DNA of 52,979 bases from a virus. The notes under the pieces are model-generated. The model did not search any database, had not been told where the DNA came from, and saw only the letters and a list, made by a program, of their open reading frames with translations. This document shows, in pieces, positions 25,216 through 30,981 of the stretch. Within the stretch, counting starts at the first letter, position 1, and each line of letters begins with the position of its first letter. The DNA lies in IMG/VR virus record IMGVR_UViG_3300017917_002451, positions 1 to 52,979 of that record; one strand, given 5' to 3'. A program made the position numbers and the translations under genes.

Positions 25216-27267
25216 TTATGCAAATGCATCACCGCTTAGGGCTTTGGTTGCATCCACATTACGTTTTGTATATTCAGCTACCTGTTTCATTGTATGTAAC
25301 ATTTGACTGTTTACACTATTTAATTGTTCTACAAGACCTTTAAGATTATTTGCCGCTGAGCCGTCCATTAAACTTGATAATTGGCTAGGAGTCATTACAG
25401 ATTCCTGGCCATGTAAAGTAACATTAGTTCCGTTACCAAAATCTTCAAATAGCTTACCAGTTACACCGTAACTGCCAAATGCTCGCCCACTAAGTGCTTT
25501 TGTTTCAGCCTCTATTCTAGAGTTTGCACCCCTATTAGCAAACATATCTAATCCTAGAAAACTACCAATGTTTTCTATTCCTCTAGCTAGTCCAGATTCT
25601 GCTTTTTCATACCATTTCATTTTATCCCAATTTGCCTGATCCTGTCTTAATGCTGCCTCATCGGGTCCTGCCTTTAATTTGGTCCAAGTTCCTGCTACAA
25701 TTTCTGTAACGCCATCTACTATATCTTTGATAATTTTTTGTCTGCCTTCGGGTGTAAAAAGATTTTCTGCAAAGTTTACAAGTTTATTTGCTATTCCGTG
25801 TAATTCATCGACAATTCTACTCATTATCGGCATCAGTTTTCCGCTTAATAAAGAAAGTATTTGAGACATTTTAGCATTAAACTCTTTCATGTTTGCTTCC
25901 ATTGATAATGCATTTGCCAAATCGGCATTTCTGGTCGCCGCGGCCGCATCGGCGGCAGCTTTCTCAGCTTGCAACTGTCTCTCTCGTTCTTCTAAATTTT
26001 CAGCACCTGCATTTTTTAGTGCTGTAAAATTTTTAGCTAACGGTCCAATACTTTCGGCAACAGCTTCTCCTTGTAAGGCCAATGCCTGCATTGGTTTAGC
26101 GATTCTAGGATATGCTTCTGCGGCAGCAGTCTGTAATTCTGCTACTCGCCTAATAGTTTGAGACTTAAATTGCTCAACAGAAACACTAGTGTTCATTGCT
26201 GCATCTGTTTGATTTCTTAGCTTCTCTGCTAGTTCACCACCTAATGCTGTTAATAATTTTCCTTGTTGTCCTTGCACAGCAATTCCCATAGCCTGTGCTT
26301 TAACTATTTCTGCTCCTCCTTTACCGGCAACTTGCATTGCTTCGTTAACTTGACTTTGTAGTTTTTTTGCTTCGTCGGGATTTAATGTAGCTAAAAATGC
26401 TTGGAAGTTAGATTCTTGCATAGCTTCTTCTAACTCTTTTTGTTGCGCTTCTCTAGATTTTCCTGTAATTCTTGCTAAAAGATCTAATTCTTTACCATAC
26501 GCTACGGCGGCCTCAGCTACACCTTTGTAATCAGTTTGTTGTTGTCTATTTAGGCCGCCAACTGTTCTAGCATAGCTTGTTGTTAGTTTGTTTAAGTCTT
26601 CATAACTAAAACCTAAATTTTTTAATTGTTCACCAAACCCCCCAGTACGTGTTATTTCTAGGTTAATATTCTTTAAATTCTTAGCACCTTGGTTAGCACT
26701 TGTACCAATAAATTGCAAAGTATCTGCACTTTGTTTTAAGTTTTGTACAAAAAATTCTAATGAAACTTTTGAGTTTAATGCTGTTTCTCTTAAATTATTT
26801 AGGCCAGTACCAAAATTAATACCAGATTGTGTTAATGATCTAAATTGTTCTAAATTTTCTGTTTGTATCTTTGCTAAGGACGCAAATAACTGGGCCACTA
26901 TACCTATAATAGGAAGGTCTTTAAATGCAAGGAATACATCTTCCAATTTAGCATTACCTGTTGCCGCACTAGCGCCAAAACTTGCTAAGTTACTAGCAGT
27001 TTTAGCAATTCCGCCAGCTAAGTCAGCCAATGCACTGCCAACTACTACTCCAGCAGAACCAAGTTTACCGGTTTTTTTCGATGTTAGTTCGGCTTGATCA
27101 CCTAATGACTTTAATCTGTTTTCTTGGTCGGCAATCAGTTTAGGATCAACACCTGATTTTTTAGCTAATGCTGATATAAAAGACGTTTGAGCTCTGCCTT
27201 GGTTCCTAGACTCCTTGAGCAATTGCTCAAGAATTTGTTCCGTTGCAGCAGTATCGATTCCGGCCAT
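25216..27267 (-). CDS. 29: Tail length tape-measure protein (gp29-like)
   Basis: A 683-residue, mostly helical, Ala/Gln/Lys-rich protein. Hydrophobic stretches (ALADLAGGIAKTASNLASFG; LPIIGIVAQLFASLA at about residues 115-130; MSQILSLLSGKLMPIMSRIV near 465) alternate with long coiled-coil-prone helices (LQAEKAAADAAAATRNADLA). The C-terminus has LHGQESVMTPSQLSSLMDG, a sequence type common near the end of phage tape measures. T4 gp29 is 590 residues. The protein would sit inside the tail tube and set its length. Just upstream and divergent lies gp26 with its gp51-like extension, the probable tail assembly factors. gp29 is inferred from length, composition and context rather than close similarity. 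Confidence 0.8.
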   Translation of the reverse strand: MAGIDTAATEQILEQLLKESRNQGRAQTSFISALAKKSGVDPKLIADQENRLKSLGDQAELTSKKTGKLGSAGVVVGSALADLAGGIAKTASNLASFGASAATGNAKLEDVFLAFKDLPIIGIVAQLFASLAKIQTENLEQFRSLTQSGINFGTGLNNLRETALNSKVSLEFFVQNLKQSADTLQFIGTSANQGAKNLKNINLEITRTGGFGEQLKNLGFSYEDLNKLTTSYARTVGGLNRQQQTDYKGVAEAAVAYGKELDLLARITGKSREAQQKELEEAMQESNFQAFLATLNPDEAKKLQSQVNEAMQVAGKGGAEIVKAQAMGIAVQGQQGKLLTALGGELAEKLRNQTDAAMNTSVSVEQFKSQTIRRVAELQTAAAEAYPRIAKPMQALALQGEAVAESIGPLAKNFTALKNAGAENLEERERQLQAEKAAADAAAATRNADLANALSMEANMKEFNAKMSQILSLLSGKLMPIMSRIVDELHGIANKLVNFAENLFTPEGRQKIIKDIVDGVTEIVAGTWTKLKAGPDEAALRQDQANWDKMKWYEKAESGLARGIENIGSFLGLDMFANRGANSRIEAETKALSGRAFGSYGVTGKLFEDFGNGTNVTLHGQESVMTPSQLSSLMDGSAANNLKGLVEQLNSVNSQMLHTMKQVAEYTKRNVDATKALSGDAFA

Positions 27268-27343: not shown

Positions 27344-28210
27344 ATGGATTCTACAGCCGGCAAGAAAATAAATCCGTTGATCAGCTTGATGCGTCAACCA
27401 AAAATTTACATAAGATTACCTAGCAATGGAAAGTATTGGAGCGAAGGCAGTCTTAACACGACTACAAACGGAGAATATCCAGTATATTCAATGACTGCCA
27501 GGGACGAACTTATGTTAAAGACACCCGATGCATTGCTAAACGGACAAGCGGTTGTAGATGTAATACAGAGTTGTATGCCTAATGTTAATGACGCTTGGGC
27601 CATACCAAATATAGATTTAGATGTTATTTTAGTTGCTATAAGATTAGCCACTTTTGGCGAAAACATGGATACAACTGTAAGTAGTGTAGGTGCAGAAGAG
27701 ATGACTTACACAGTTAATCTTAGAGAAATATTAGATAGATTACAAAATCAAATATCTTGGGAAGAACGTTTAGAAATTGGCAAGGAAATGGTATTGTACA
27801 TTAGACCTATAAACTATAGTATAGCTAGTAAAACAAGTATACAAAGTTTTGAAACTCAAAAAATATTAAGTTTAGTAAATAATTCTCAACTTACAGAAGA
27901 AGAAAAGATAGAAACATTTAGAGAAAGTTTTAAAAAACTCACTGATATAACGGTTGATGTTATTAACAGCAGTGTTTTCAGAATTGAAAGCATAGCCGGA
28001 ACCACAGAAGATCCAGATCATATCAAAGAATTTTTAGAAAATTCAGATGCTCATATATTTGAAAACATTAAACGTCACTTAGAAGTTATGAGAGAAAAGA
28101 ATGGTTTGAAACCAATTAAAGTACAGGCCAGTCAAGAAATGATCGATAAAGGTGCGCCAGAAGAATTTGAAATTCCTTTAACGTTTGACCCTGCAAATTT
28201 TTTCGGGTAA
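27344..28210 (+). CDS. 26: Baseplate hub / tail assembly protein gp26 (zero-frame product)
   Basis: A 288-residue protein of the T4_baseplate (gp26) family. Recognisable blocks are IRLPSNGKYWSEG at residues 24-36, YPVYSMTARDELMLKTPDAL at about 47-66, then NGQAVVDVIQSCMPNVNDAW and LDVILVAIRLATFGENM. T4 gp26 is 208 residues and is needed for hub assembly. The gene lies next to and divergent from the tape measure. It ends GCA AAT TTT TTC GGG TAA; the AAATTTTTTC run sits in the phase required for a -1 slip into the gp51-like frame that follows. This resembles the G/G-T tail chaperones of lambda-type phages in layout. Confidence 0.85.
   Translation: MDSTAGKKINPLISLMRQPKIYIRLPSNGKYWSEGSLNTTTNGEYPVYSMTARDELMLKTPDALLNGQAVVDVIQSCMPNVNDAWAIPNIDLDVILVAIRLATFGENMDTTVSSVGAEEMTYTVNLREILDRLQNQISWEERLEIGKEMVLYIRPINYSIASKTSIQSFETQKILSLVNNSQLTEEEKIETFRESFKKLTDITVDVINSSVFRIESIAGTTEDPDHIKEFLENSDAHIFENIKRHLEVMREKNGLKPIKVQASQEMIDKGAPEEFEIPLTFDPANFFG
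28195..28204 (+). promoter_or_regulatory. Candidate -1 ribosomal frameshift site AAATTTTTTC
   Basis: In the gp26 frame the codons are GCA AAT TTT TTC. Both A AAT TTT (28195-28201) and T TTT TTC (28198-28204) fit the X XXY YYZ rule for simultaneous -1 slippage. The zero-frame stop TAA follows after one GGG codon. In the -1 frame the sequence is open from 28189 (after a TGA at 28186-28188) to the stop at 28432-28434. I see no clear downstream stimulatory hairpin. Confidence 0.7.
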
Positions 28211-28434
28211 GGCTTTTATCTCTTAGTATTGAAGAAATACTCCAGCTTTCAGAAAAACTAGAAAAAGAAATAAAAGCCGTAAAAGAAGAATTAGTTAGAA
28301 TGTGCTGGTTTATGCGAGGCGGTATGACTTTAGAAGAAGCCTATAATACAGACTATCAAGATAGAGAAATTATAGCAAAATTAATAGAAAGTAATCTAGA
28401 ACTTACTAAACAAAGCAAACTACCGTTTTTTTAA
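28201..28434 (+). CDS. 51: gp51-like C-terminal extension, read in the -1 frame from gp26
   Basis: The -1 frame encodes about 77 residues beyond the slip site. They include LSIEEILQLSEKLEKEIKAV, LVRMCWFMRGGMTLEEAY, DYQDREIIAKLIESNLELTK and the ending SKLPFF. This is the pattern I recognise in gp51-type baseplate hub assembly proteins of marine T4-like phages. There is no ATG, GTG or TTG before the conserved region; the first ATG in this frame is at 28300, in the middle of the domain, with no Shine-Dalgarno. Expression therefore most likely needs a -1 frameshift, giving a gp26-gp51 fusion of 363 residues. The frame ends 4 bases into the 3' end of the convergent gene at 28431. Confidence 0.75.
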   Translation, partial: FRVRLLSLSIEEILQLSEKLEKEIKAVKEELVRMCWFMRGGMTLEEAYNTDYQDREIIAKLIESNLELTKQSKLPFF

Positions 28435-29623: not shown

Positions 29624-30981
29624 TTAGGGCGTAGGCGGTTGTCCGGTACCTACTCGTTCTGGCTTTATTACAACGGCGGCTTGTATAACAAACACTATCT
29701 TATTATACAAACGTGCAGAATCACTTCTGCGTCTTTTTGCTTCTTCTATTTCAAACAACCAAATCACAGCAGTTAAGTGATCGTCATCCTTTCGGGTAGT
29801 GGTTGAGTTCTCACTACGGCGGTGAGCATTCCGTCCCTGCGACTCGAAGTCCAGGTTTAGGGCGCATGAAATTAGCCTGCGCTAGCCGTTAACCGCTTAA
29901 TTTGCCTTTGATATGTGTGCCATGTACACGGACTTGTATATGTCCGTTATAGTATTCGTCTGATTCTAAAACTTTGCGTGTAAATTGTTCTCGTGCTTCA
30001 ACGTATGAACATTCTGCCTTGGATTTACAAAAATATAATATTTGTCTGTGAAATTTTTCTGCGCCTAATTGTGCTACATCTTTATTGAGTTGTTCATTTG
30101 AGCCGTAATAAGTTTGCCAGTCTGAGTCTATTTTTGATTTAATTCGTTTCTTTTTCTTAGTGCCGTTTTTTAATTTTACCGTTTTGTAGCTTACTTTTGA
30201 AAATTTGCTTAATTTTTTGCCAATATATTTTTTTCCAGTGATTTGATTTACAATTATGTAAACAAAGCCAATACAATCTTCAGGAAGTTCAGTTACTTCT
30301 TTTCCTTGATATGTCCACATTATTTTATATTCTTTTTAATAGAGGACCTACCCGGTTCCCAACCATTTCCTGGACATTCTCTACTTTTTATAGAGACTCC
30401 ATCTTTACTCCACCATTTATTTCCAATAGTTGCTTGTGTTCTTTTTAGAACATATTCTGGAGATTGTTTCCTACCAGACATTGCTACTGATTGTTTTAAT
30501 TTCTGTTCTTCGGAGATTAATTTGCCTTTGTTACCATTGCCGATCTTTTGTTTATGTTCTTCAGACTTCGGTTTACCTTTGTTACCCCTGGCGTTTTTGT
30601 TTCCTAACATAGTATTAGAAGATACTCCTTCGCCTCCGTCTGTCTTGTTTCTCAAAATTCCGGTACCTAAATCTTTTCTACCATACCATCTAATCATTCT
30701 TCGTTCTAAAGCAAACGCTCCGAGTTCTGAAAGATTTGTTTCTAACATTACTATTCTATTATTAGATGGTACTTTAACTTTATGATCTTTGGATTTGTGT
30801 CTATTATCGTGTCCTTTACCTATATAGTAAGGAGATCCGTCTACCCTGAGGTAAGCGTAGACATAGTATTGTAAATACATTGCTGATAGTTCCTATAAAC
30901 TGTTAGAGCCAGTGGATGCGTCAACATCGCGACTGGCACTTCTATTTATACGATTACCAACAAATCCAAGACATCGGTCAT
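29624..30981 (-). CDS. Small split gene: exon 1 (30950-30981) and exon 2 (29624-29792), 66 aa if spliced
   Basis: The ATG at 30981 overlaps the stop of the histone-like gene as ATGA, a classic coupled start, but the frame stops after [11 protein letters not shown]. About 1.2 kb on, behind two homing endonuclease genes, a start-less frame resumes: [20 protein letters not shown], then [20 protein letters not shown] and the stop at 29624-29626. The two parts fit in phase if the intron runs from 30949 to 29793, giving [16 protein letters not shown] and 66 residues. The product would be a small helical protein that I do not recognise. Exact splice points are tentative. The alternative is a gene simply broken by endonuclease insertion. 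Confidence 0.55.
29889..30320 (-). CDS. GIY-YIG-type homing endonuclease (143 aa)
   Basis: A 143-residue protein. The N-terminal half has the GIY-YIG pattern [20 protein letters not shown] at about residues 17-36, followed by [20 protein letters not shown] and a helix containing [20 protein letters not shown]. The family Glu is probably in the EAREQF helix. Proteins of this form are frequent in T4-like phage genomes as free-standing or intron-borne homing nucleases, which cut intron-less or endonuclease-less sites. The start overlaps the stop of the upstream endonuclease as TAATG at 30320, so they are co-translated. Its last codons overlap the R-like element of the proposed intron core. Confidence 0.75.
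   Translation of the reverse strand: MWTYQGKEVTELPEDCIGFVYIIVNQITGKKYIGKKLSKFSKVSYKTVKLKNGTKKKKRIKSKIDSDWQTYYGSNEQLNKDVAQLGAEKFHRQILYFCKSKAECSYVEAREQFTRKVLESDEYYNGHIQVRVHGTHIKGKLSG
30320..30880 (-). CDS. GIY-YIG homing endonuclease with NUMOD3-like DNA-binding repeats (186 aa)
   Basis: A 186-residue protein. The catalytic domain opens with [20 protein letters not shown] (residues 5-24), a GIY-YIG variant, followed by RHKSKDHK and [12 protein letters not shown], which carries the expected Glu. The C-terminal half holds NUMOD3-like modules typical of homing endonucleases: [29 protein letters not shown] and [14 protein letters not shown]. These bind DNA in a modular way. The gene lies inside the proposed intron. 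An exact TATAAATA late promoter box lies 63 bases upstream, reminiscent of the late promoter that drives the intron-encoded I-TevI gene in T4 td. Confidence 0.82.
30943..30950 (-). promoter_or_regulatory. Exact T4-type late promoter box TATAAATA at the intron 5' end
   Basis: Minus-strand TATAAATA spans the end of exon 1 and the proposed 5' splice site. It would give a separate late transcript for the two endonuclease genes, uncoupled from the early gp46 operon. Confidence 0.6.

Follow-up and report, generated by a model that had tools for sequence, protein, structure and literature searches.

Frameshifting in tail assembly chaperone (TAC) genes is classical. In phage λ, the G/G-T gene gives a major short and a minor long product by -1 slippage near its 3' end, at a slippery sequence of the GGGAAAG type. 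The TAC genes of T4-like phages were identified in 2022 (Vladimirov, Gautam, Davidson 2022, Virology 566:9-15, as cited in PMC10274946 and PMC12846349). The PRFect paper (PMC10274946) cites that work for T4-like phages in which frameshifting gives way to two TAC genes, one short and the other longer and fused, and a 2025 paper (PMC12846349) cites it for poly-T slippery sites in T4-like TAC-N genes and itself reports a GTTTTT slippery site in the Vandenendeviridae. An earlier note on the DNA analysed here had called a frameshifted layout one not usually described for T4 gp26/gp51, a statement that these citations place out of date.

The locus considered here belongs to a viral record 52,979 bases long, the whole of which is referred to below as the window. 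With T4 gp26 and gp51 it shares an N-domain of the PF12322/phrog_150 kind, an extension that may be of the phrog_634 type, and a putative pair of short and long forms built on the same N-domain. In T4, however, these are distinct genes in divergent orientation (116428-115802 and 116479-117228), where the window has a single gene with a putative -1 site, and T4 gp26 ends TTC TTT GAG TTA CTA TAA, without a slippery site. The one-gene plan is that of λ, but the slippery sequence is different, no sequence similarity was seen between the λ and window genes, and the putative tape-measure neighbour in the window is divergent rather than downstream. In the Vandenendeviridae and Andersonviridae, PMC12846349 describes a poly-T site at the end of TAC-N with the -1 frame open through the extension, as in the window, although these are other phage families and the site is GTTTTT rather than TTTTTTC. 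Heptamer, phase and extension type are the same as in the window at the gp26 loci of Kyanoviridae, Schizotequatrovirus and jumbo phages; in the annotations examined, the extension is a separate short gene or is unannotated, and no frameshift is marked. We found no paper on tail-chaperone frameshifting in jumbo phages in a search that covered few subscription journals. What is new here is the extension to the window's lineage and to the jumbo phages, the near-universal heptamer and the covarying stem. We consider it very probable, from the comparisons below, that a programmed -1 frameshift produces TAC-N and a fused TAC-NC at this locus.

The gp26-like gene, its extension and its neighbour

The gp26-like ORF (27344-28210, + strand) encodes 288 aa and is identified as the putative short chaperone, TAC-N, by its matches to PF12322 (T4_baseplate; E 2.9e-9) and phrog_150 (E 6.5e-11); it is 24-34% identical to its jumbo-phage homologues. 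Its last codons are GCA AAT TTT TTC GGG TAA, with the 0-frame stop at 28208-28210 (+). The overlapping -1 frame is open from 28189 to 28434 (+), between a TGA at 28186-28188 and a TAA at 28432-28434, and encodes a gp51-type extension (TAC-C) that would continue for 76 residues past Phe-Phe, an assignment based on its substitution pattern and on related extensions in phage relatives. A fusion of the two frames would be 363 aa long. The -1 frame stayed open past the heptamer in only 0.1% of 5000 dinucleotide shuffles. Its earliest ATG, GTG or TTG is at 28300, 37 codons in, so that the earlier note was right to say that no start codon precedes the conserved part; the coordinates, ORF ends, frame phase and fusion length that it gave were likewise reproduced.

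Profile comparisons point to a relationship with both T4 proteins. T4 gp26 and T4 gp51 each match phrog_150; only the gp51 match extends to the end of that profile, and only gp51 matches phrog_634, the family of cyanophage and KVP40-like extensions. The extension of the window does not itself match any PHROG significantly, and it has the FFR..L start in common with the cyanophage and KVP40-like extensions. When an HMM of the extensions was compared with 19 kb of T4 sequence translated in six frames, the best match was to residues 212-246 of gp51 (E 1.8e-5) and the next, unrelated, was at 0.073; direct hhalign comparison of the gp26 profile with T4 gp51 gave too weak a match. The description of the -1 frame as gp51-type therefore stands for the C-terminus of T4 gp51, but the frame corresponds only to a C-terminal extension, as T4 gp51 comprises N-domain plus extension in 249 aa.

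Structural models of gp26 are consistent with a chaperone fold. The cyanophage gp26 model (pLDDT 84) has as its best match, among solved structures re-aligned by VIA-align, the HK97 TAC (2ob9; Z 6.1 over 83 of 104 residues), followed by YqbN of B. subtilis, a prophage tail-region protein (3klu; Z 5.4), and a PICI-like protein (5ir0; Z 4.1), with the next entry at Z 3.3. The window gp26 model, of modest confidence (pLDDT 67), matches 2ob9 with Z 5.3 over 100 of 107 residues. These models thus resemble a TAC of the long-tailed phages, with all Z scores below 8, a range in which a match can reflect a common arrangement. Foldseek alone gave no significant PDB match for the gp26 models, and a sequence search of solved structures found nothing significant. 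The proposal that these proteins are tail assembly chaperones gains support from the comparative evidence and, at modest Z, from the fold match.

The divergent gene next to gp26 (25216-27267, - strand) encodes a 683-aa protein that is possibly a tape measure or other structural protein. It has a weak BLASTP match (E 1e-5) to the structural protein that PA5oct encodes at the corresponding position, and its RaK2 counterpart is annotated as similar to tape measure; no Pfam or PHROG match above cut-off was found for it. These matches weakly suggest a tape measure.

The slippery heptamer and its conservation

The proposed slippery heptamer is T_TTT_TTC at 28198-28204 (+), an X_XXY_YYZ sequence in the 0-frame phase with a single sense codon between it and the 0-frame stop. 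The bare string TTTTTTC is frequent in the window (18 copies on the + strand), and the weight of the heptamer lies in its phase, position and conservation rather than in its presence. Two overlapping heptamers had been proposed. T_TTT_TTC is conserved, whereas the second, A_AAT_TTT (28195-28201, +), is shared, among the relatives compared, by the window and its sister contig only. Because AAATTTT is unconserved beyond the sister, we regard T_TTT_TTC as the relevant heptamer and reject A_AAT_TTT as the main site, leaving it as a possible secondary one.

All 82 cyanophage-type loci have an in-phase TTTTTTC followed by a related -1 extension (FFR..LL...), and in all 82 the 0-frame stop lies one codon after the heptamer. 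These loci include 80 IMG/VR contigs, the top hits for a single cyanophage protein, which densely sample one clade, and the breadth of the conservation rests on the named phages. The heptamer is in phase, again with a related -1 extension, in 12 loci of jumbo and other phages, window and sister included. It occurs in the same phase in the jumbo phages Phosso, Atu_ph07, 121Q, Vibrio 2.275.O, PA5oct, RaK2, SCTP-2, XaC1 and GAP32, as well as in Bakedbeans and the cyanophages S-CAM8 and S-RIM8; SRB7757, Moby, MED4-213 and three KVP40-like phages have it together with a related -1 extension. TTTTTTT takes its place in Melnitz and CM1. Across the phage relatives, the peptide read after the slip would start FF, mostly FFR, and run into the related extension. 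An insertion or deletion error in the T run, splitting one gene during sequencing or assembly, would place a homopolymer at the frame junction, as is seen here, but the identical heptamer and phase recur in about 100 separately sequenced loci, finished phage genomes among them, and we reject this explanation as having a negligible chance of being correct.

The codon pair at the site is itself unusual. Among 101 Phe-Phe pairs elsewhere in these ORFs, TTCTTT was used 58 times, TTTTTT 37 times and TTCTTC 6 times, and TTTTTC not once. The absence of TTTTTC from the other pairs indicates that these two codons are retained because of the site.

Some relatives depart from this pattern. In Melnitz, a Methylophilales phage, there are eight Ts at the site and the gp26 stop directly follows TTT TTT (L098:2187-2194). 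In the Ackermannviridae, VAP7 and Salmonella PM10 keep a -1-phase extension without a strict XXXYYYZ (L102:2211-2417 and L103:2313-2486); their gp26 genes end GTT TTT CGC TAA and ATT TTC ATT TAA, respectively, and the GTTTTTC of VAP7 resembles the GTTTTT motif reported for the Vandenendeviridae.

Selection on the -1 frame and the downstream stem

The sister contig (L008), in which gp26 is 85% identical to that of the window and the slippery site is the same, allows the -1 frame to be assessed as coding sequence. Past the heptamer the two differ by 36 substitutions, distributed 12:1:23 over codon positions 1:2:3 of the -1 frame, and of the 29 codons that differ, 22 keep their amino acid in that frame. 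In the stretch from 28205 to 28299, which holds no start codon, the distribution is 3:0:7, with seven synonymous and two nonsynonymous codon changes. A -1-frame codon pattern ahead of any start implies that protein is made in this frame from the heptamer onwards, and by these substitutions it is under protein-level selection from that point.

This pattern bears directly on the possibility that the gp51-type part is made on its own as a small protein, begun at an internal start such as ATG 28300 or by coupled re-initiation at the gp26 stop. Public annotations do place an internal start on the extension in S-RIM8 (45 aa), Melnitz and MED4-213, and Phosso, Atu_ph07 and 121Q have, at or close to the overlap, an ATG from which the extension could be initiated by itself. 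The slippery run and the -1 phase, which the earlier note had proposed to compare among relatives, are conserved, but the absence of start codons is, from these three phages, not universal. On the other side, the window, the sister, PA5oct and RaK2 have no ATG, GTG or TTG near the overlap, and the PA5oct extension has none at all. TTT-TTC is invariant at the site although other synonymous Phe-Phe pairs are used elsewhere, and in T4 gp51 the extension is fused to an N-domain. With selection acting ahead of the first start codon, we reject a separate gp51 start as the main route and consider an independently initiated protein improbable.

A putative stimulatory stem lies downstream of the heptamer, with its 5' arm GGCTTTTAT at 28211-28219 and its 3' arm ATAAAAGCC at 28270-28278 (both +), the gp26 stop falling within the spacer. 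The stem has 9 bp and begins 6 nt past the heptamer, within the 5-9 nt expected of a stimulatory structure. The fold z of the region is -2.16, and a scan of the window gp26 found no other position with an anchored stem as strong. Stems also begin 6 nt past the heptamer in the sister, in PA5oct (11 bp), in Phosso (GGCTCTTGTC/GGCAAGAGCC) and in Atu_ph07 (GGCTCTTTGT/ACAAAGAGCC). In an alignment of four sequences, on which the covariation test rests, all nine pairs form in every sequence and three are changed on both sides, with compensatory changes seen in Phosso and Atu_ph07; in slid-partner controls pairing falls to 42-58%.

A strong anchored stem was not found in RaK2, GAP32 or many cyanophages, and the median anchored stem is ordinary in cyanophage-type loci. 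We therefore reject a universal stimulatory stem. The stem appears to be a feature of certain lineages, or else other shapes may serve in the cyanophages and RaK2. A subgroup of cyanophage-type contigs (L042, L044, L048) has an 11-bp stem of the GGTATGGCTCA/TGAGTCATACT type 5 nt past the heptamer, and L024 and MED4-213 (L107) have GCCCTC/GAGGGC downstream of the site. Rfam gave no match for the locus.

The T run also raises the possibility that RNA polymerase, rather than the ribosome, slips and joins the frames. Poly-T can slip in transcription, and there are six Ts here and eight in Melnitz. Six Ts are short for transcriptional slippage, however, and the conserved phase, the C that closes the heptamer, the nearby stop and a stem that begins 6 nt further on and shows compensatory changes all fit a ribosomal site. 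We regard transcriptional slippage as quite unlikely to be the explanation, less likely still than a separate start.

A model for the locus and for the T4 gene pair

The comparative evidence, the selection on the -1 frame and the covarying stem all favour the -1 frameshift fusion that the earlier note had proposed. The occurrence of slippage, its rate and the chaperone role are what we infer. Under programmed frameshifting, gp26 and the -1 frame would be one gene with two protein products. Most ribosomes would stop at the TAA at 28208-28210 and release TAC-N, of 288 aa. A minority, presumably, would be paused by the stem that starts at 28211 and slip back one base on T_TTT_TTC, where the two Phe codons would both re-pair on TTT; these ribosomes would read on to 28434 and produce TAC-NC, of 363 aa. 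By analogy with λ gpG and gpGT, TAC-NC would use its C-terminal extension to hold the tape measure, and many copies of TAC-N would coat it during growth of the tail tube.

Because of their phrog_150 and phrog_634 matches and the match of the extension HMM to gp51, T4 gp26 and gp51 look like the short and the fused product, respectively, carried as two divergent genes. A frameshifted gene would offer a simple route to this separate pair. We lean towards the view that the frameshift is ancestral for the chaperone pair in the T4-related superfamily of cyanophages, KVP40-like Straboviridae and jumbo phages, where the near-invariant T_TTT_TTC would maintain it, together with a covarying stem in some lineages. 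The two-gene layout of T4 would then be derived, the fusion having become gp51 and gp26 having lost the site. A probable recoding site has been kept, down to the choice of codon, in phages that share only 20-30% protein identity.

The frameshift reading would also account for a gene that, in those public annotations of large phages that we examined, is broken up, truncated or absent. The extension is wholly unannotated in RaK2 (L006:3319-3549), PA5oct (L005:3322-3558), PM10 (L103:2313-2486) and S-CAM8 (L011:2660-2872). Near the tail genes of the window, two adjacent ORFs on the - strand (29889-30320 and 30320-30880) have GIY-YIG-like starts and are possible homing endonucleases.
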